DNA of 24,725 bases from a virus, in the IMG/VR virus record IMGVR_UViG_3300021963_000623, positions 1 to 24,725 of that record. One strand, 5' to 3'. The notes under the pieces are model-generated. The model searched no databases, was not told the origin of the DNA, and saw only the letters and a program-made list of their open reading frames with translations. Of this stretch, positions 2,105 through 24,108 are shown piece by piece (position 1 is the stretch's first letter; each line of letters opens with the position of its first letter). The position numbers were made by a program, and so were the translations under genes.

Positions 2105-3711
2105 TTAACGCAATAAAAAACTTCTTCACTCGAGCACTTTCCCTTAGTGGTGGTAACCTTCGAGATCCACGATTAAACGAGCTTTTCGGTGGCGCGTCAA
2201 CAGACTCAGGCGTCAGCATTACTCCTGAGACTGCGCTCACCTATAGTGCAGTTTATCAGGCTGTCCGATGTATCTCGGAAGCGGTCTCGAGTCTACCGCT
2301 GAACCTTTACGAGCGACAACCGGGAGGAGGCAAAAGCAAAGCGTCGGCGCATCCTCTTTACAGCATCCTCCACGACTCACCAAATCCTGAGATGAGTTCG
2401 CTCCAGTGGCGCGAATGCTCAATGGCGCATCTCCTGCTCTGGGGAAATTCTTACACCGAGATCGTGCGAGACCTCGAGGGGAACTGCGTCGAGCTTTGGC
2501 CGATCGACCCCTCGATCGTTACCGCAAAGCGTACTGATTCGGGCGAACTTTACTACGATCTGAATCGAGGGAAGTCATTCATCACCGCAGCGAATATGCT
2601 TCACATCAGCGGGCTTTCATTCGATGGCATCTCAGGCATGAGCCCGATTTCAATGGCTCGGCAGTCGCTCGGGCTTTCACTCGCAATCGAGCAGTTCGGT
2701 GCAGGTTATTTCGGGAGAGGCGCTCGCCCTGGTGGTGTCCTGACATTTCCCGGACAGCTTTCCCCAGAGGCTCGACAGAACTTGCGAAGGTCATTCGAGG
2801 AGCTGCACGCAGGAGGGGCGAACTCTCATCGAGTCGCTCTGCTCGAAGCTGGCCTGAAATGGGAAAGCATCGGAGTTCCTCCCGACGATTCACAGTTTTT
2901 GCAGTCGCGAGAATTCCAAGTGGTCGAAGTCGCTCGCTGGTTTAACATCCCACCGCATAAACTGCGCGATCTTAATAAACCTTCCTACAACTCGCTCGAG
3001 ATGATGAACATCGAATTTCTCACGGACACGCTTCGCCCGTGGCTCGTCAGATGGGAGCAGTCATTAAATCGAAAAATCATCCGACCGAAAGATCGAGGAA
3101 ACTATTTCTGCGAACATAATGTCGAAGGAGTTCTCCGAGGCGACATCGCCTCGAGATATCAAGCTTACTCAGTCGCTCGGAACTGGGGCTGGCTCAGCGT
3201 GAACGAAATCAGAGAGAAAGAAAACATGAACGGCGTCGGGCCCGAGGGCGATGTCTATATGCAACCCTTAAATATGCAGGCGCTTGGCACAGCTCCGACC
3301 GCAGCTCCTGCGACTGGCCCAAGTCTGGTGGCAGCGCCAGCACCCGAACCAGTTCCGACCACCCCGACCCGATCTGATGAGTCGATTCTTCTGCGTCTCC
3401 TCGACGATGCAGGCGAAAGGCTTCAGAGCATTGAGTGCAACGCAGTAAAACGCTTCGCTAATAAGCCGGGAGAATTTCTTGCAAAGATCGATCATTTCGT
3501 CGGTGAGCATCGAAGTCGAGTCGTGTCTGCTTACTTTCCAGTTCTTGAGGCGTTCGGGCTCGAGGCCGATATCGAGAAGCACGTCCAGCGTCATCTCGAT
3601 CAGTTCAGATCTGTCTGGCTGGATTTTTCAGGATCAGTGACCGCAGCGAAACTTGCTGAAGCAGTTTCCGAAAAGATCAACACCATGAAAGGGGTCAAAG
3701 ATGAAAACTAA
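2101..3711 (+). CDS. Phage portal protein, HK97 family
   Basis: This forms the dodecameric ring at the capsid vertex through which DNA enters and leaves, and to which terminase and the tail attach. The family core runs from about residue 40 (SAVYQAVRCISEAVSSLPLN) to 350 and includes the characteristic FQVVEVARWFNIPPHKL and YNSLEMMNIEF segments. At 536 residues it is longer than the usual 400-430. The extra part is an Ala/Pro-rich linker (about residues 395-425) followed by a helical C-terminal domain of about 110 residues. The start overlaps the terL stop by four bases, and the stop overlaps the protease start by 11 bases. The C-terminal extension may be a clip/barrel elaboration or a fused scaffold-like segment; I cannot tell which. 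Confidence 0.93.
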   Translation: MINAIKNFFTRALSLSGGNLRDPRLNELFGGASTDSGVSITPETALTYSAVYQAVRCISEAVSSLPLNLYERQPGGGKSKASAHPLYSILHDSPNPEMSSLQWRECSMAHLLLWGNSYTEIVRDLEGNCVELWPIDPSIVTAKRTDSGELYYDLNRGKSFITAANMLHISGLSFDGISGMSPISMARQSLGLSLAIEQFGAGYFGRGARPGGVLTFPGQLSPEARQNLRRSFEELHAGGANSHRVALLEAGLKWESIGVPPDDSQFLQSREFQVVEVARWFNIPPHKLRDLNKPSYNSLEMMNIEFLTDTLRPWLVRWEQSLNRKIIRPKDRGNYFCEHNVEGVLRGDIASRYQAYSVARNWGWLSVNEIREKENMNGVGPEGDVYMQPLNMQALGTAPTAAPATGPSLVAAPAPEPVPTTPTRSDESILLRLLDDAGERLQSIECNAVKRFANKPGEFLAKIDHFVGEHRSRVVSAYFPVLEAFGLEADIEKHVQRHLDQFRSVWLDFSGSVTAAKLAEAVSEKINTMKGVKDEN

Positions 3712-4261
3712 TACCGTAGAACGAAGGTTCTCAACCGAGCTCAGAGTCGATGTCGCAGCGCAAAAGATTATCGGGTACGCTGCCAAATATGATCTTAGCT
3801 CAGAAGACCTCGGGGGCTTTCGGGAGTTCGTGAGGCCGGGTGCATTCACCCGCTCCCTTGACAGCAACCCCGATGTGCGGGCCTTGATCGATCACAACCC
3901 GAGCCTCATCCTCGGGCGCACCGTCTCGGGCACCCTGAGACTTGAGAGCGATGCCACCGGGCTCAAGGTTACTATCGACCCGCCTGACACCCAGTATGCT
4001 GCCGATTTGATGGCAGTCATGGCGAGAGGTGATGTGAGCCAGATGAGCTTTGCCTTCACGACTTCCGAGGATGCTTGGGATCTGGTGGACGGTAAACGGG
4101 TGCGAAGCCTCCTCGCGGTCGAGCTCCATGATGTCTCGGTGGTGACTTATCCCGCCTACCCGGACACCAGCGTGGCAGTTCGCTCGCTCTCGATCTACAC
4201 CCAGGACGCCATCCGATCAGCGCAACGCCTGCGGGAGCTTCGCCTCCGGGGCGATCGGTAA
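3701..4261 (+). CDS. Prohead protease, HK97 gp4-like (peptidase U35)
   Basis: This is the maturation serine protease that cleaves the capsid delta domain inside the prohead. In 186 residues it carries the family signature: RPGAF (about 45-49), DHN with catalytic His65, and GDVSQMSFAF with nucleophile Ser116, followed by the conserved VELHDVSVVTYPAYPDTSVAVRS strand region. It overlaps the portal gene by 11 bases. Codon use differs from its neighbours: GCC, ACC, GGG and CGG are common here, whereas the rest of the operon prefers GCA/GCG/GCT and CGA. The capsid gene it acts on is not adjacent; it is separated by the regulatory island at 4262-5334, an unusual gap for this normally compact gene order. 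Confidence 0.92.
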   Translation: MKTNTVERRFSTELRVDVAAQKIIGYAAKYDLSSEDLGGFREFVRPGAFTRSLDSNPDVRALIDHNPSLILGRTVSGTLRLESDATGLKVTIDPPDTQYAADLMAVMARGDVSQMSFAFTTSEDAWDLVDGKRVRSLLAVELHDVSVVTYPAYPDTSVAVRSLSIYTQDAIRSAQRLRELRLRGDR

Positions 4262-4293
4262 GAAAAACGCACCTGTTTTGCTGACATCTCTAG

Positions 4294-4315
4294 GGGTGGG
4301 GGAAATCCTCCACCC
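4294..4315. terminator. Strong hairpin after prohead protease, no T-run
   Basis: GGGTGGGGG (4294-4302), loop AAAT, CCTCCACCC (4307-4315) forms a nine-pair GC-rich stem with one G-T pair, 33 bases after the protease stop. It is not followed by a T tract, so it is not a classic intrinsic terminator on either strand. It may pause RNA polymerase, protect an mRNA 3' end, or mark a processing site at the end of the packaging operon. Confidence 0.45.
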
Positions 4316-4384
4316 TACCAAAGCCCTTAAATCTAGCGGTTTCAAACTATTTTAAAAATACTTCCTAATTATCTACAATAAATA

Positions 4385-4400
4385 GTTCGCCACAGCGAAC
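4385..4400. promoter_or_regulatory. Inverted repeat, possible operator in leader of Cys-rich gene
   Basis: GTTCGC-CACA-GCGAAC is a perfect six-base inverted repeat in an otherwise AT-rich leader (4320-4430). A possible -10 (TATACT, 4408-4413) follows at a distance that would place the repeat over the -35 region. No good -35 is seen, which would fit an activator-dependent or weak promoter. The HTH protein encoded at 4954 is a natural candidate to bind here; this is inference only. Confidence 0.4.
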
Positions 4401-4469
4401 AATACTATATACTTACCACATGGCAACCGACGAGTGATCGGGAGCATGGGGCTAAAAAAGGAGATAGAG

Positions 4470-4961
4470 ATGAGCAATTGCACCTGCTGCGAAAAGTCGC
4501 CCGCGCACCCTCTTTGTGGTGACCATTGCGAGCAGTGTCATCGCCCATGCTGCTGCGCTGTTTGCGACAAAGAACTAGATTCGGACCTTGTTGAGAGCTG
4601 GAAGGCTGGAGAACCAACTGACATCTGTTGCGAGGCGTGCGAGGCCTCTAGAAAAAAGCACATTTGGATTGATGCGACTTGCTCCAGAGTCGAGGAGTTG
4701 GCCTCGACTAGTGGGTGGGAAACAGGCGACTGGAACACAGCAGAGACTGGCAGTCGGTACATTGAGTTGCATCGTGAGTGCTCGTCCTGCCTCGGGGTCG
4801 TTGATCGTGAGTGCGAATGCGAGACTCTCAAGGTCCGCGTCAGTGATCACGGGTCGGCCTATTGCTATGAAGACATTTCAATTGCCATGACCCCGAGCGG
4901 TGACGATCACACCCTCAAAGACCTAGAGCGCAGACTGATGCAGGATGTGAAAGTTGACTAA
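4470..4961 (+). CDS. Cys-rich, probably zinc-binding protein of unknown function
   Basis: I do not recognise a named family. The 163-residue protein opens with clustered cysteines (C4, C6, C7, C16, C20, C23, C27-C29, C32, then C53, C54, C57), with CxxC and HxxxCxxC spacings that suggest two or more zinc sites. A second half is more ordinary (ETLKVRVSDHGSAYCYEDIS) and ends in a charged helix. The start at 4470 is chosen because GGAG sits seven bases upstream in a purine run; an in-frame GTG at 4434 and ATG at 4446 lack such a site. It overlaps the next gene by eight bases. Its codon use resembles the protease and HTH genes rather than the structural genes. It could be a nucleic-acid-binding regulator or a host-modifying protein; nothing in the sequence decides this. 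Confidence 0.75.
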   Translation: MSNCTCCEKSPAHPLCGDHCEQCHRPCCCAVCDKELDSDLVESWKAGEPTDICCEACEASRKKHIWIDATCSRVEELASTSGWETGDWNTAETGSRYIELHRECSSCLGVVDRECECETLKVRVSDHGSAYCYEDISIAMTPSGDDHTLKDLERRLMQDVKVD

Positions 4962-5136
4962 CCTTATTCCAGTATCCAAAGCCGCTGCCTTCCTCGGGGT
5001 CACTCCGAGGCGGGTGCAGGCGTTGATCACCTCGGGGAAGCTCCGGGCCCAGCGCATCGGGCGTGACTACCTGATCGATCCAGCAGACCTCCCGACCTTG
5101 GAGCGCCGTCCACCCGGACGACCCCGCAAAGTTTAA
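4954..5136 (+). CDS. Small HTH DNA-binding protein (excisionase/MerR-like) with AT-hook-like tail
   Basis: A 60-residue protein starting at TTG 4954, preceded by AGGA eight bases upstream and overlapping the Cys-rich gene by eight bases. Residues 6-48 match the HTH_17 / excisionase pattern: VSKAAAFLGVTPRRVQALITSGKLRA, then the wing QRIGRDYLID and PADL. The C-terminus PPGRPRKV resembles an AT-hook core (GRP flanked by basic residues), giving a second DNA contact. Family members act as excisionases or as small transcription factors. Its place inside the late operon, between two inverted repeats (4385-4400 and 5188-5204) and directly before a terminator-promoter pair, favours a local transcription regulator over an excisionase for the distant integrase, but both stay open. 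Confidence 0.82.
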   Translation: MTNLIPVSKAAAFLGVTPRRVQALITSGKLRAQRIGRDYLIDPADLPTLERRPPGRPRKV

Positions 5137-5142
5137 CTCCCT

Positions 5143-5174
5143 AGGCTCGCCTTAACCGGCGGGCCTTTTTTTTT
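5143..5174 (+). terminator. Intrinsic terminator after HTH gene
   Basis: AGGCTCGCC (5143-5151), loop TTAACC, GGCGGGCCT (5158-5166) forms a nine-pair stem with one G-T pair and is followed by nine T. It lies seven bases after the HTH stop and closes the Cys-rich/HTH transcription unit, so read-through from the terminase operon would also stop here. Confidence 0.88.
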
Positions 5175-5184
5175 GGCACGATTG

Positions 5185-5212
5185 TTGACGGATCGCAGAT
5201 CCGTGGTTTAAT
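5185..5212 (+). promoter_or_regulatory. Sigma70-type promoter upstream of capsid gene
   Basis: TTGACG (5185-5190), a 16-base spacer, and TTTAAT (5207-5212) form a good vegetative promoter immediately after the preceding terminator. Predicted transcription start is near 5219. This should give the capsid gene its own transcript independent of the packaging operon. Confidence 0.7.
5188..5204. promoter_or_regulatory. Operator-like palindrome inside the promoter spacer
   Basis: ACGGATC-GCA-GATCCGT is a perfect seven-base inverted repeat that starts within the -35 hexamer and fills most of the spacer. A dimeric protein bound here would occlude polymerase or realign a short spacer, as MerR-type activators do. 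The upstream HTH protein is the obvious candidate. Confidence 0.6.
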
Positions 5213-5218
5213 CGATTA

Positions 5219-5276
5219 TCGAAATCAGTGCAGTCTTTACGCACAGATCCCGAATCAGGGGCCTGTGCGTTTTTTT
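5219..5276 (+). ncRNA. Predicted short terminated leader RNA
   Basis: Between the promoter (-10 at 5207-5212) and the T-run ending at 5276 there is room for an RNA of about 58 bases and no reading frame of note. Its 5' part AGTGCA-GTC (5227-5235) can pair with GAC-tga-TGCACT (5291-5302) beyond the terminator, enclosing the terminator hairpin, so an alternative long form of the leader is possible. It could be an attenuator leader, an antitermination-responsive leader or a free small RNA. No known RNA family is recognised. Confidence 0.4.
5239..5276 (+). terminator. Intrinsic terminator between promoter and capsid start
   Basis: ACGCACAG (5239-5246) pairs perfectly with CTGTGCGT (5263-5270), with an inner CCC/GGG contact, and seven T follow. 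It lies only about 20 bases after the predicted transcription start at about 5219 and 59 bases before the capsid ATG. A transcript from the upstream promoter would therefore end as an RNA of about 58 bases unless termination is overcome. Confidence 0.85.
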
Positions 5277-5334
5277 ATGTCTCTCACCGAGACTGATGCA
5301 CTGCCCTAATACCGCAAATATTAGGAAATTATCC

Positions 5335-6711
5335 ATGAACGAAATTGAGAAGTTGCGTGCAGAACGCACCGCAAAACTTTCTGAAGCCCGAGCGATTCAC
5401 GCAAAAGGCGAAGCTGAAAAACGTCAACTCACTCCCGAAGAGCAAACCGCTTTTGATGCTCTCGTCGCTGAAGTCGACGATCACGAAATGAGAATCGCAG
5501 ACCTTGAGTCGATGATGGTTCCTGTTGATCCCAACGCAGTGCAGGCGAATTCAACAGACGCAGGCACAGCACGCAGCGAAAAGCTTTCCGCTTTGGAGGC
5601 TCAGAGCAAGAAGCCCGCAGCGAGACGCTCAAGCCCGATCGAGGCTCCTGCGTTTGTGCGCGATTTTGGCGATCGTCAAGCGACCGCAGACCGAGCACTG
5701 GCCCTTCGAGGATGGCTCGGATTTCACAGCGTGAACGGCGCATCTGACGCTCAACGTGTCGCAGCTCAGAGATCTGGTCTCGAACTCGGCAACAACAGGT
5801 TGAGCTTTAAGCTGAACGCAAAAGCTCCGAAGAATCAAGCTGAAGCCCGCGCTCAGTCGACCTCCGGTTCTGCTGGTGGTTACACTGTGCCACAAGGTTT
5901 CATTAACCAGCTCGAAGCTTCTCTTCTAGCTTTTGGTGGTATGCGCGAAGTGGCGACCGTGTTAAGAACCGCTGAAGGTAACGACCTTCCGATTCCGACC
6001 GTAAGCGATCACTCCAACGTGGGCGCAATTCTCTCAGAAAATTCTCAGGTCGCTGAACAGGACATTACCTTTGGTCAGATCACTCTGAAAGCTTACAAAT
6101 ACTCTTCGAAACTCATCCGAGTTTCCGCTGAGCTTTTGCAGGATTCAGCGATCGATCTTGAGTCCTTCATCGGTGGCGCCCTTGGGGAGAGGATCGCCAG
6201 AATTTTTAATACTCACGCAACCACAGGAGATAACTCCTCAAAGCCCCAGGGGATTACTGCTTCTGGTGCTGGCGTGACTGCTGCCTCTGCGACTGCGATC
6301 ACCTATGGTGAGCTCGTCGAATTGCAGCACAGCGTCGATCCTGCATATCGTGCTAATGCTCGATTCATGATGCACGACTCGACGTTCAAAGCGATCAGGA
6401 AACTGCTCGACGGACAAAACCGTCCGATCTTCCAACCTGATATCACCGCCGCTTCTCCTGGTACTCTGCTCGGTTCGCCAATCGTGATTAATCAAGATTG
6501 CGCAACGATCGCAGCAGGAGCGAAGGCAGTCTTCTTCGGCGATTTCAGCAAGTATATTATTCGAGATGTTCAGGATTTCACTCTCCTGCGTCTTGAAGAA
6601 AGATACGCTGATTATCATCAGGTCGGTTTCGTTGGTTTCTCCCGTCACGACGGAAGAATCCTCGACGCTGGCACTGATCCGATTAAGCACTTGGTACTCG
6701 CAGCAAGCTAA
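5335..6711 (+). CDS. Major capsid protein, HK97 fold
   Basis: This is the shell subunit, 458 residues from ATG 5335. Residues 1 to about 75 are a charged coiled-coil delta/scaffold domain (EIEKLRAERTAKLSEARA), expected to be removed by the protease. The HK97 fold begins near GSAGGYTVPQGF (about residue 177) and includes the N-arm/E-loop strand EGNDLPIPTVSD, a P-domain helix and the C-terminal segment FGDFSKYIIRDVQDFTLLRLEERYA. The start is chosen for AGGA eight bases upstream; an in-frame ATG at 5296 would add 13 residues without a ribosome site. It is transcribed from its own leader (5185-5276). The stop overlaps the next start (TAATG). Confidence 0.93.
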   Translation: MNEIEKLRAERTAKLSEARAIHAKGEAEKRQLTPEEQTAFDALVAEVDDHEMRIADLESMMVPVDPNAVQANSTDAGTARSEKLSALEAQSKKPAARRSSPIEAPAFVRDFGDRQATADRALALRGWLGFHSVNGASDAQRVAAQRSGLELGNNRLSFKLNAKAPKNQAEARAQSTSGSAGGYTVPQGFINQLEASLLAFGGMREVATVLRTAEGNDLPIPTVSDHSNVGAILSENSQVAEQDITFGQITLKAYKYSSKLIRVSAELLQDSAIDLESFIGGALGERIARIFNTHATTGDNSSKPQGITASGAGVTAASATAITYGELVELQHSVDPAYRANARFMMHDSTFKAIRKLLDGQNRPIFQPDITAASPGTLLGSPIVINQDCATIAAGAKAVFFGDFSKYIIRDVQDFTLLRLEERYADYHQVGFVGFSRHDGRILDAGTDPIKHLVLAAS

Positions 6712-12579: not shown

Positions 12580-13530
12580 ATGTCAGTCATAAACACGTAC
12601 GAAACTTTTGAAGGTCGCACCGGAAGCGATGACTCAAAGCTCCAGGTCTCACTGGTTCGATCTTTTATCGTGCAGACCGATAATCTCGCCGACGACGTTC
12701 CTGATCTCTTCGGAACTAATCTGCCTGCCTTATTCTCTCAGCATCCGAATTTTGAGCGAGCATGGTGCATAGGTCGTACAGCGTCTCAGATGGACGACCC
12801 GCACTTCTGGAAAATCACCTGCTCTTATTCATCGAACATTGACACCGTCGCACCAAGTTCGACCCCGAGCGCACCGCAGACCCCGGAAGTCGCAAATCAG
12901 AATAAGGGCGCATCACCGGAAGAGAAGGCGAGCGAAGAGAATATAAATCCGCTCACTCGGCCGACAGACGTCGACTTCAGCACAAGCGATAAAGAATATG
13001 TTTTAGACACCGATTACAGCACGCCAACAAAACCGATGGTGAATGGAAATAACGAACGATTCGACCCTCCGGTGATGACTCATCGACCGCTCTTGTGTAT
13101 GAAACTGGAATTCAACAGCGCCACTTTCATCGCACTCGACTGGATGGATCGAGTCAAGTGCGTGAACACAAATTCATTTTCTGGGTTTCCTCCCCGCTCG
13201 ATGCTCCTGGACAAAGTCACGGCAAAACGAGTTTACGAGAACGGATACAAATACTGGCGCATCACTCTTGAATATCTGCTCGACAAAGACAACTGGGATG
13301 CGGTCGTGCTCAATCATTCTTATCGGGAGTGGAACGGAACGGAACTAGTTACAGCCAGAGACATCGCAGGCAACGTGCTCCCAAATGGAGTTATCATTCA
13401 GGGCGACACGGGCATCCCTCTCGATCCCGATGTCAAGCCAGACGAAGAGAATGGCGGCTTTTTACGTTTTAGAATTTACGATGATATCCCTTACACTTAC
13501 TTAACACCGATCTATAGAAAGATTCTCTAA
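12580..13530 (+). CDS. Probable tail tip structural protein, unknown family
   Basis: A 316-residue protein directly after the tape measure gene, the slot usually filled by a distal tail or hub protein. I recognise no named domain. The N-terminal third (ETFEGRTGSDDSKLQVSLVR, then HPNFERAWCIGRTASQMDD) is beta-rich. A Ser/Pro/Glu-rich linker occupies about residues 88-130, and the C-terminal half contains two strand-rich segments (KLEFNSATFIALDWMDRVKC; KYWRITLEYLLDKDNWD) and an ending IYDDIPYTYLTPIYRKIL. The ribosome site AAGGAG precedes the start. Its stop overlaps the next start (TAATG). It resembles proteins in this slot in planctomycete-like prophages from memory; treat this as weak evidence. 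Confidence 0.7.
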   Translation: MSVINTYETFEGRTGSDDSKLQVSLVRSFIVQTDNLADDVPDLFGTNLPALFSQHPNFERAWCIGRTASQMDDPHFWKITCSYSSNIDTVAPSSTPSAPQTPEVANQNKGASPEEKASEENINPLTRPTDVDFSTSDKEYVLDTDYSTPTKPMVNGNNERFDPPVMTHRPLLCMKLEFNSATFIALDWMDRVKCVNTNSFSGFPPRSMLLDKVTAKRVYENGYKYWRITLEYLLDKDNWDAVVLNHSYREWNGTELVTARDIAGNVLPNGVIIQGDTGIPLDPDVKPDEENGGFLRFRIYDDIPYTYLTPIYRKIL

Positions 13531-14687
13531 TGAGCGCCTATGGATTTTCAGAAGATAGCGCAAAGCGGATCGCTCGCGTCGTGAAAGCGGTCGAGGGTGA
13601 CACGACAGCACCGACTCGGATTGGGCCCATGCTCGGAGGAGCGACGATGAGCGTCGTGAAGGTGACTGCGGTCGCCTCGCCTTTATCGCTGGGTATACGA
13701 CTTGACTATCACGCAGCGGATGGCGTGCTTGTGGTGCAAAACGAAGTGAAGGTTAAAGAGGTGAATGGTCAAGCTCTGAAAGTAAATAATTATTACGTCG
13801 GGTTTTTTAGTGGGTACACCTCAGAAGGAGATCCTGTTTTCTTGGTGAGCGTTTCGAGTTCATCTACGTCAGCATCAGGAGGCGGAGGCAGCGGAGGAAG
13901 CGGAGGAAGCGGAGAGTGCTTTGATGTGATTCAGTCGATCGACTGCACCGACGGCGAACTAAGTGTCACCTATGCGACCATATGCCCGGACTCTGGTACA
14001 GCAGTCATCGTGGGGCAGCAGACTGGTAATTATTCCATTACGACTCGGTATTCAGTCGCTGGAGGAGCATCACTCTCAGCAGGCGTGACCTTAAACCTTG
14101 TCGGGGATGTATCTTCACCGGGTGCAAATATGTTCTACGGAACTAATTCCAGCGGTGCCCGTGGATGGTATCCGTTCTCAGATATCTGCACCGTATGCGG
14201 GAGCACACCGACCCCTACCCCAACGCCTACACCTACACCAACGCCTACACCAACGCCTACACCAACACCTACACCAACACCGACGCCAACCCCGACGCCT
14301 ACGCCTACAGTTTCAGCATCGATCTATGCGCAAGACTCGGGATGGACTACTGCCACTAACTCAGGGACAGGAACTGAGGCTAGCCCGAAAGTAATAAGCA
14401 GCAACAATGACTCGCTTTTAAGTGGAACTTCCGCTTTAACGTGGATTTTTACGGCGTCGGCGGCAGGAACTTTTCATTACTCTTTTAACTGGGCGAATCA
14501 TGACTACGGGTCAGGATTTAATGGTAATGATATTAGCCCTTGGGGCGAAGGTACGACCGCGACCATATCCGGCACCGTGGCAGTGACCAGCGGCCAAGTA
14601 GTAGACCTTACAGTTATTAGACCAGGCTTATTAGAAACCAGCGTAAACACCGAAGTTAATGCTTCTGTTTATTTAACAGTACCTTAA
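13530..14687 (+). CDS. Modular tail protein with Gly-Ser linker and Thr-Pro repeats
   Basis: A 385-residue, apparently virion-associated protein in four parts. Residues 1-112 begin GFSEDSAKRIARVVKAVEGD, a helical start found in some phage tail-tip proteins. Residues about 113-127 are a Gly/Ser linker. Residues about 128-225 form a small beta domain with Cys pairs (ECF, DC, ICP, CTVC). Residues 226-260 are 17 Thr-Pro dipeptides, followed by a C-terminal beta domain of about 125 residues (SASIYAQDSGWTTATNSG...). The linkers imply beads on a flexible string, as in adhesins or fibres. Thr-Pro tracts are good O-glycosylation substrates, and a glycosyltransferase gene lies 1.2 kb downstream. Binding target unknown. 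Confidence 0.72.
   Translation: MSAYGFSEDSAKRIARVVKAVEGDTTAPTRIGPMLGGATMSVVKVTAVASPLSLGIRLDYHAADGVLVVQNEVKVKEVNGQALKVNNYYVGFFSGYTSEGDPVFLVSVSSSSTSASGGGGSGGSGGSGECFDVIQSIDCTDGELSVTYATICPDSGTAVIVGQQTGNYSITTRYSVAGGASLSAGVTLNLVGDVSSPGANMFYGTNSSGARGWYPFSDICTVCGSTPTPTPTPTPTPTPTPTPTPTPTPTPTPTPTPTPTVSASIYAQDSGWTTATNSGTGTEASPKVISSNNDSLLSGTSALTWIFTASAAGTFHYSFNWANHDYGSGFNGNDISPWGEGTTATISGTVAVTSGQVVDLTVIRPGLLETSVNTEVNASVYLTVP
14205..14309 (+). repeat. Hexanucleotide repeat encoding (Thr-Pro)17
   Basis: Seventeen units of ACN CCN followed by one more Thr codon. Unit third positions vary (ACA/ACC/ACG, CCA/CCT/CCG), with the central part most uniform (ACA CCA ACG CCT). Copy number could change by slippage without breaking the frame. 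Other frames through the repeat are open but encode low-complexity artefacts. Confidence 0.95.
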
Positions 14688-22650: not shown

Positions 22651-22728
22651 AAATTTAATAGAATCGGGAATTTTACTGTCGATAATACGCTATCAGCAGC
22701 GGGCTTTAACGCTATTCCTTAGTGCGGG

Positions 22729-22772
22729 TTGGGGTGGAAGAGGTCGCAGGTTCAAATCCTGTATCCCCGACC
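22729..22772 (+). other. attP core: 3' half of a tRNA-Pro(GGG) gene
   Basis: From the anticodon loop TTGGGGT (22729-22735) onward the sequence is a good tRNA 3' half: stem strand GGAAG, variable loop AGGTC, T stem GCAGG/CCTGT (one G-T pair), T loop TTCAAAT, acceptor strand ATCCCCG, discriminator A, then CC. The anticodon GGG and G37 indicate proline. The 5' side does not pair (no CGGGGAT, no 5' anticodon strand), so this is not a whole tRNA. A partial tRNA 3' end next to an integrase is the classic phage attachment core, which restores the host gene on integration. Confidence 0.8.
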
Positions 22773-22799
22773 TTGTTTTTGAGAAAAGTGACGGAAATA

Positions 22800-22865
22800 A
22801 AAAGTAGTACTGTACAACATCGTACTACTTTTGCTAACATTCTCCGCATGTGGTGCTACTTTTGC
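22800..22865. repeat. Three copies of GTRCTACTTTT between attP and integrase
   Basis: AAAAGTAGTAC (22800-22810) and GTACTACTTTT (22822-22832) are a perfect 11-base inverted repeat with an 11-base gap. A third copy, GTGCTACTTTTGC (22853-22865), repeats the second (GTACTACTTTTGC, 22822-22834) in direct orientation 31 bases further, about three helical turns. These are likely arm-type integrase sites and/or operators for the integrase gene, which starts 22 bases later. Confidence 0.7.
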
Positions 22866-22887
22866 GCCTCGCTGCTGGAGTTAAAAC

Positions 22888-24108
22888 ATGGCTAAAAAGA
22901 AAAAGGTTCCTGGACTGCTCCATCATAAGCACAAGAACCTAGGTTACAGCGTCGACCCGAACACCCGAAAAACCACTTATCACGGTCAGTGGGGGCTCGC
23001 AACTACTAAGCAGAGTTATCTTCGCTGGTGCGCTGATCTCCTTACCGAAGAGGTCATGCCGAGGCTCCCTACTGAGAACGAGCCCGTCGTCGCCGATCTC
23101 GTCAACGCATTTATTAAGCACGCTATCTCCTATTACCGCGACCCGATCACGGGGAAACCGACCTCTCAGTTGGGAGTGATTAAGTCTGCCCTTCGGGAGC
23201 TCGACCTTTATCTCGAAATGAAAATAAAAGACTTTGATACTTCCACGCTCCTCGCAGTCAGGGCAGGGATTGTGAACAGAGACATTATGCCGAAGTCTGA
23301 GGGAGCACCGAGAAAAAAGCTTTGCATCAGTTCTGTCAATGGAGCGATCACCAAAATTAGAATGATGTTTAAATTGGGCGTCGAATGGAAGCTCGTTCCG
23401 GTCGAGATATATCAGGCACTCGCCTGCGTAAGCGCACTCAACTGGCGAACAGCTCCTTCTCTAAGATCGCCCGAGAAGATCACCCCAGTACCGCTTCATT
23501 ATTTCTCGCTCATCATGCCTCATCTTAAGCCGCTCTATCAAGCGGTTCTTAAAGTTCACATCGCCACGGGCATGAGGGTAAAGGAGCTATGCTCAATGAG
23601 GTGGAGCGAGATCACTGAGGTCGAGCCCGGTCTCTGGTGCTATTCACCGAGCGAGCACAAGAACTCCCATCGAGGAGATGACCGAAAAGTTTATCTTAAG
23701 AGCGATCTCATCGAGCTCATGAGGAGCGTGAGAAAACCTCTCTGGAAGGAAGACGCAGTTTGGTGTCATCGAGGGGTGGGTCGTCATGCTGGATATTCTG
23801 GAATGATTTCTCCAGACGCTTATGCTCGAGCGATTGAAAATGCTCAAGAGCGATACAACGACGGAAGAATCAGTCGGGAAGCAGGAGCGCGAACAGACCT
23901 CAAGAAGAAATATAAATACACCAGCGCTAAACGAGAACCGATGACGCCTTGGACACCGCTCCAGATCCGTCATACTGTTGCGACGCAGGTTCGCAGGACT
24001 CATGGACTTGAGGGAGCGCAGGCCGTTTTAGGGCACTCGACGCTCGACGCAACGCAGATTTATGCTGAAAAAAGGGATGATTTAGCGAGGAGCGTAGCGA
24101 GACTGTAA
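22888..24108 (+). CDS. int: Tyrosine recombinase, phage integrase
   Basis: A 406-residue site-specific recombinase that should integrate the phage at the tRNA-Pro core just upstream. It has an N-terminal basic arm region (MAKKKKVPGL), a core-binding domain (about residues 65-175) and a catalytic domain with R230 (ATGMRVKELCSMRW), K258 (HKNSHR), R361 (IRHTVAT), H383 (LGHST) and Y392 (QIYAEKRD). The box II histidine usually found three residues before the second arginine is replaced by Leu (PLQIRHT); His362 follows the arginine instead. The start has GGAG eight bases upstream. Repeats at 22800-22865 lie in its promoter region and probably link integrase binding with its own expression. Confidence 0.93.
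   Translation: MAKKKKVPGLLHHKHKNLGYSVDPNTRKTTYHGQWGLATTKQSYLRWCADLLTEEVMPRLPTENEPVVADLVNAFIKHAISYYRDPITGKPTSQLGVIKSALRELDLYLEMKIKDFDTSTLLAVRAGIVNRDIMPKSEGAPRKKLCISSVNGAITKIRMMFKLGVEWKLVPVEIYQALACVSALNWRTAPSLRSPEKITPVPLHYFSLIMPHLKPLYQAVLKVHIATGMRVKELCSMRWSEITEVEPGLWCYSPSEHKNSHRGDDRKVYLKSDLIELMRSVRKPLWKEDAVWCHRGVGRHAGYSGMISPDAYARAIENAQERYNDGRISREAGARTDLKKKYKYTSAKREPMTPWTPLQIRHTVATQVRRTHGLEGAQAVLGHSTLDATQIYAEKRDDLARSVARL

Follow-up and report, generated by a model that had tools for sequence, protein, structure and literature searches.

The 1,073-bp gap between the prohead protease and major capsid genes of an uncultured freshwater phage consists of two separate modules, an optional gene cassette on the one hand and a capsid promoter with a folded leader on the other. 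We consider it probable that the two act independently, the cassette as a self-regulated carrier of cargo genes resembling acr-aca operons, and the promoter as a capsid-only promoter whose conserved folded leader acts on the capsid mRNA. The sequence studied is a 24.7-kb virus record, and "the window" denotes this whole stretch of 24,725 nucleotides.

Gene order around the gap

Pfam and PHROGs assignments gave the order terminase, portal, protease, gap, capsid, which is that of the HK97-type head cluster, with the difference that in the window a capsid-specific promoter and leader stand between protease and capsid. The flanking genes and the two modules are:

3701-4261, + strand: prohead protease, left flank (Peptidase_S78, PF04586, E 2.2e-45; PHROG 80)
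4316-5165, + strand: optional moron-like cassette, about 850 bp (delimited by comparison with loci L028, L037 and L070 and by a census of slots)
5185-5334, + strand: capsid promoter and leader module, kept in all near relatives with or without the HTH gene
5335-6711, + strand: major capsid gene (Phage_capsid, PF05065, E 3.2e-68)

An initial annotation of this DNA had reported a protease-capsid gap of about 1.07 kb containing hairpins, palindromes, Cys-rich and HTH ORFs, a promoter and terminators; the gene order bears out the gap, and all of the listed elements were found where they had been placed. Plain consensus scans returned three promoter-like sites (1.7 in shuffles) and three terminator-like sites (3.1 in shuffles), which is chance level when taken alone, and since they match the shuffles, the case for the gap elements rests on relatives. 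Elsewhere in the window, a run of Thr-Pro repeats (14250-14330) was noticed inside a 385-aa protein (13530-14687).

Relatives and clades

Searches with the HTH and Cys-rich proteins as queries retrieved 20 viral contigs and a search with a leader 19-mer (GTGCAGTCTTTACGCACAG) retrieved 58, and capsid searches brought in diverged clades. Clade A is that of the window (L001); clade B comprises L118, L120-L126 and L154 (L118 and L120-L126 with capsid identities of 72-76%); and clade C comprises L179-L200 in part, L217-L276, L290 and L295, with the capsid of L180 about 38-41% identical to those of clades A and B. The records of all relatives come from uncultured sources, and the search of known phages returned only capsids of less than 60% identity. 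We defined the slot as the protease-to-leader interval, which yielded 80 distinct sequences of 63 to 2,023 nt out of 205 loci; the HTH gene is present in 13 of these and absent from 67 (13 versus 28 in clades A and B alone). Scans of genomes for a host gave one match, a contig in a Rhodobacteraceae MAG bearing a clade C relative; as this contig may be misbinned, no host was assigned. Other Rhodobacteraceae genomes contained only distant capsid matches (in 4 of 295). The proteases of L012, L013 and L014 match that of the window at residues 1-174 of 186 (90% identity) and differ at the C-terminus.

The optional cassette

The elements of the cassette, together with the protease hairpin that precedes it, are as follows:

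4293-4316, + strand: hairpin 3' of the protease gene (dG -19.6)
4385-4400, + strand: inverted repeat GTTCGC-CACA-GCGAAC at the cassette promoter, candidate operator of the HTH protein
4403-4413, + strand: likely -10 of the cassette promoter (TATAAT at this position in most relatives)
4427-4441, + strand: cassette leader hairpin with the conserved loop ACGAGUGAU (12 of the 13 HTH slots)
4470-4961, + strand: Cys-rich cargo gene, 163 aa (relatives in L019 and L020 at 60-61% identity)
4954-5136, + strand: HTH gene, 60 aa, HTH_17/excisionase family (TTG start overlapping the cargo stop)
5143-5174, + strand: cassette terminator, 9-bp stem and nine T (dG -17.2)

Among the slots of clade A, the shortest are those of L028, L037 and L070. 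They are identical to the window up to and including the protease hairpin (GGGGTGGGGGAAATCCTCCACCC), after which the T-tract and capsid promoter follow without a break; L028 matches the hairpin region through CCACCC and then continues CCTCCTTTTTTTTT. In the cassette-free relatives the T-tract comes directly after the equivalent of hairpin 4293-4316, making it the protease terminator, and the cassette of the window splits this hairpin from its T-tract, the relatives presenting a precise empty site. From this empty site it follows that the protein genes of the window are an insertion, and also that the capsid promoter and leader are independent of them. A simple cargo insertion, the outcome that the initial annotation had set against its own model, therefore applies to the protein genes.

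Morons are defined by their own promoter and terminator and by insertion between two genes that are adjacent in relatives, and Mu-like phages are known to carry an accessory gene between the protease gene and the major head gene (PMC4378225). The cassette of the window, with its predicted promoter and terminator, is likewise absent from the same site in L028, L037 and L070; it differs from a moron in having its own regulator and in swapping cargo between fixed ends. Its order is promoter with palindrome, small leader hairpin, cargo gene, HTH gene and terminator, and the window and L008 share a near-identical start of 208 nt (hairpin, palindrome, leader), followed by unrelated cargo and then by the same HTH gene. 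In all HTH slots the HTH gene comes after the variable cargo. The L004 group has one gene further downstream: L004, L005, L006 and L007 carry a second cargo gene (148 aa) between the HTH gene and the capsid leader, so that cargo can be added there as well. The HTH and Cys-rich genes had been taken for a single control module, a reading that is not supported, since the Cys-rich gene is interchangeable: it occurs in just 3 of the 13 distinct HTH cassettes, and unrelated genes fill its place in the others.

Distribution and fold of the capsid leader RNA

The second module has the following parts:

5185-5212, + strand: capsid promoter, TTGACG-16-TTTAAT with TG ahead of the -10 (relatives have a TTGAC-type promoter at this position whether or not they carry the HTH gene)
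5188-5204, + strand: palindrome in the capsid promoter spacer, perfect in the window (shuffle p 0.004)
5219-5334, + strand: structured capsid leader RNA, its putative start placed from the -10
5228-5232 with 5297-5301, + strand: closing helix P1, GUGCA with UGCAC (helix pairs changed in clades B and C)
5232-5238, + strand: internal-loop strand AGUCUUU (AGUNUUU in all three clades)
5239-5270, + strand: hairpin P2 (U-tract 5270-5276 in the window's clade only)
5279-5293, + strand: hairpin P3, GUCUC/GAGAC (both-sided changes in 4 of 5 pairs in clade A)
5305-5325, + strand: hairpin P4, CCUAAUA/UAUUAGG, covering the Shine-Dalgarno AGGA (5323-5326)

The leader 19-mer lies 105-110 nt before the capsid start in 53 of the 53 contigs that hold the downstream gene, whether or not they carry the HTH gene, and the leader recurs in all three clades, about 110-170 nt ahead of the capsid start, with capsid identity falling to about 38%. 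A gapped pattern of the leader core was run against all viral contigs, and among the 80 stretches listed of 118, 72 precede a capsid gene, 3 lie at a contig edge and 5 are unrelated. Promoter and leader are also found in relatives with a protease-to-leader gap of 63-152 nt, from which the HTH and Cys-rich genes are both absent. The initial annotation had described the gap as a self-contained switch in which the HTH protein, perhaps with the Cys-rich protein, controls capsid expression; what stands of this is a conserved promoter and leader of the capsid gene's own, apart from the packaging genes, and what is not supported is control by the two proteins, since promoter and leader persist without either gene. 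Extra leader copies in whole contigs, including L021 and L217, were rejected, as they lie inside coding sequence and lack the fold. A different kind of repetition was seen in L154 (2781-2905), in which the leader core occurs twice in tandem before the capsid gene (AGTCTTTACGC and AGTCTTAACGC, 42 nt apart).

The clade A leaders fold into P1, P2, P3 and P4. Clade B retains P1 (GCGUA:UACGC), P2 and P4 (AUCCUUA:UAAGGAU), and clade C retains the core AGUNUUUACGCA...UGCGU with P1 as GCCC:GGGC or GCUG:CAGC; its P4 is CCUUGAA:UUCAAGG in the majority of members and absent in L180, L183, L230 and L249. Compensatory changes exceed the controls, as expected of a structured RNA. Within clade A, four pairs show double changes, all of them in P3; in the consensus fold of clades A and B, compensatory changes affect 9 of 24 pairs (the MAFFT columns leave P1 and P4 of these clades partly out of register, and P1 was compared there by sequence); and in clade C, 7 pairs are changed on both sides versus 2.4 in shuffles, exceeding every shuffle and every slid control. 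The clade C leaders are 96% paired, as against 28-46% for slid controls, and the + strand is rich in G-U pairs, as expected of RNA. Because shuffle-based counts are inflated by relatedness among the sequences, more weight is carried by a covariance model built from clade A only, which detects all eight clade B leaders and L154 with E-values of 1e-6 to 6e-3, at the capsid gene only, and which gave zero matches in loci with unrelated capsids. Clade C leaders are reached by it only marginally (E 0.75), and clades A and C are therefore linked by their common core, by position and by synteny.

The Rfam search returned nothing at gathering scores, and literature searches, which covered few subscription papers, turned up no account of a leader RNA at the capsid gene; within these searches the leader is apparently undescribed so far. 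Structured 5' leaders that gate the translation of phage or ribosomal-protein mRNAs are folded, hold the Shine-Dalgarno sequence in a hairpin and stand directly before the regulated gene. The capsid leader resembles them in being folded and covarying, in its Shine-Dalgarno hairpin and in its position directly before the gene, and differs in lying outside Rfam and in being confined to one gene, that of the major capsid protein, in this set of HK97-type phages.

Possible function of the leader

Judging from these sequence features, the leader most likely controls the translation or stability of the capsid mRNA. The capsid-only promoter would yield an mRNA with P1, the AGUNUUU strand and the long P2 at its 5' end, in which P4 would mask the Shine-Dalgarno sequence in most members, and the leader would thus gate translation of the capsid mRNA and/or shield its 5' end; a trans-acting factor would dock on the conserved loop. 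The unpaired AGUNUUU strand is among the best-conserved parts of the leader, and it is this degree of conservation that suggests recognition by a factor. The Shine-Dalgarno AGG was predicted to be paired in all three leaders folded (clades A, B and C), although occlusion is not universal, because P4 is missing in part of clade C. Two other readings of the same segment were discarded, namely a leader peptide from the ATG at 5277, after the U-tract, as this ORF is not conserved (L008 sequence), and a boxA-like reading of UCUUUA, as clade C is variable at the fourth base of AGUNUUU.

P2 had originally been described as a second terminator. A hairpin followed by a T run is indeed present; it is, however, part of a larger leader, and P2, very stable at -20 to -22 kcal/mol, is followed by a U run in every clade A member, by UUUAAAG or UCUAUAG in clade B and by no U-tract in clade C. 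A conserved intrinsic terminator is not what was found, and since the U-tract is confined to one of the three clades, termination is not the shared function of P2. In the window's own clade the leader could nonetheless be an attenuator, at which P2 and the U-tract terminate unless antitermination (by a Q-like factor or by alternative GUGC/GCAC pairing) lets transcription reach the capsid gene, the product being otherwise a short RNA. Throughout clade A a U run follows the stem (-20 kcal/mol), a combination that would count as an intrinsic terminator, and from its sequence the strand 5228-5232 could alternatively pair with the 5' arm of P2. Attenuation in clade A is thus a rival to be taken seriously, if less likely than control of translation or stability; as a shared function it is opposed by clades B and C, which hold P2 without the U-tract.

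The leader might instead mainly stabilise the 5' end of an mRNA of very high abundance without any regulator, as the ompA 5' hairpin is known to do. P1 begins within about 10 nt of the predicted start in all clades, and capsid is required in great excess, both of which suit such a role; the conservation of AGUNUUU goes beyond what stability alone would need, and we regard pure stabilisation as possible, with some reservation. The module bears on the fact that the capsid protein is needed in a far larger amount than portal or protease, and the occurrence of a capsid-only promoter and folded leader in three clades makes the setting of this ratio in HK97-type phages directly testable.

The HTH protein and its putative operator

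The assignment of the HTH family was upheld, with PF12728 (E 1.9e-8) and TIGR01764 (31.5 bits, cutoff 28.8) both above cutoff. The palindrome RTTCG-N6-CGAAY occurs in 13 of 13 distinct HTH slots (including L122 and L124 of clade B) and in none of the 67 HTH-free slots (Fisher p 3e-15, computed on distinct but non-independent sequences). It sits just upstream of a TATAAT-like -10, and no second exact copy of the 4385-4400 palindrome occurs elsewhere in the window. The stems of the cassette leader hairpin differ yet stay complementary (CCG:CGG, CUG:CAG, CGG:CCG, GGUAA:UUGCC).

In acr-aca operons, an inverted repeat in the core promoter is followed by at least one small unrelated gene and then by an HTH gene of ~60-80 aa, whose product represses its own operon through that repeat; Aca1-10 belong to HTH families other than HTH_17 (PMC9410906). 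The cassette of the window has the terminal small HTH gene after the cargo and a promoter inverted repeat tied to it, and by analogy the target of the HTH protein is probably its own cassette rather than the capsid; it would bind the inverted repeat at 4385-4400 and thereby limit expression of the cassette. Palindrome and HTH gene could also be co-inherited parts of the cassette without any binding. The extra leader hairpin recalls Aca2, which reportedly binds RNA. The HTH protein belongs to HTH_17/TIGR01764, outside the Pfam families of Aca1-10, no Aca chain was found among its PDB matches, and the cargo matches no known family in Pfam, PHROGs or PADLOC. Since the HTH lies outside the known Aca families, we describe the cassette as one that, from its sequence layout, appears to work like an acr-aca operon and not as a member of this group.

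A more far-reaching version of both proposals may be put forward tentatively, and we think it unlikely in full: the leader would be a dedicated capsid RNA switch, in which some trans-acting factor, perhaps the capsid protein or a different head protein, recognises AGUNUUU/P2 and toggles P4, tying synthesis to head assembly, and the HTH cassette would represent a new Aca-type family, with the HTH protein acting on a palindrome in DNA as well as on a hairpin in RNA, and marking candidate anti-defence genes. In either version the HTH_17 gene together with RTTCGC-N4-GCGAAY provides a sequence handle for finding new, fast-changing phage genes, which may counter host defences.

Its membership in the TIGR01764 excisionase family and its best solved relative (4j2n, Gp37, E 0.02), which we take to be a phage Xis, might suggest that the HTH protein serves the integrase encoded at 22888 as a recombination directionality factor (excisionase). 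We think this very unlikely: in the window the gene is 18 kb from the integrase gene rather than beside it, it is missing from most relatives, and the candidate site, the palindrome, has no copy around 22.7 kb, where attP is presumed to lie. Just ahead of the integrase gene, the sequence at 22722-22890 looks like the 3' part of a tRNA, about one half of it (GGTCGCAGGTTCAAATCCTGTATCCCCGACC), and may be attP; ARAGORN detected no tRNA in the window.

The palindrome of the capsid promoter differs in sequence from that of the cassette, and its description as a palindrome within the promoter spacer is correct for the window, where it is perfect, and does not extend to the relatives, in many of which the left arm is degraded, HTH-bearing and HTH-free alike. 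A capsid switch thrown by the HTH protein together with the Cys-rich protein through this palindrome, in favour of which stand its perfection in the window and the adjoining HTH gene, is thus highly improbable, as dozens of relatives keep promoter and leader without either gene, the palindrome does not track with the HTH gene (imperfect in the HTH-positive L011, L012 and L017, perfect in the HTH-negative L037 and L078), and the HTH gene tracks with the other palindrome, at the cassette promoter.

Cargo genes

Comparison of the cargo proteins with Pfam, PHROGs and PADLOC identified no firm family, and the predicted structure of the Cys-rich protein (pLDDT 66) gave no PDB match with E <=0.001. 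By eye, the cargo proteins of L011, L016 and L020 (clade A) and of L183, L228 and L244 (clade C) appear to have an N-terminal module in common, with W..ER or similar followed by FP.W or PPY and then by LPDDL, a sequence likeness that suggests modular exchange of cargo domains. Clade C slots (L180, L185, L225, L262 and others) often encode proteins of 86-90 aa that resemble two-helix membrane proteins and, from this resemblance, are possible superinfection-exclusion genes.
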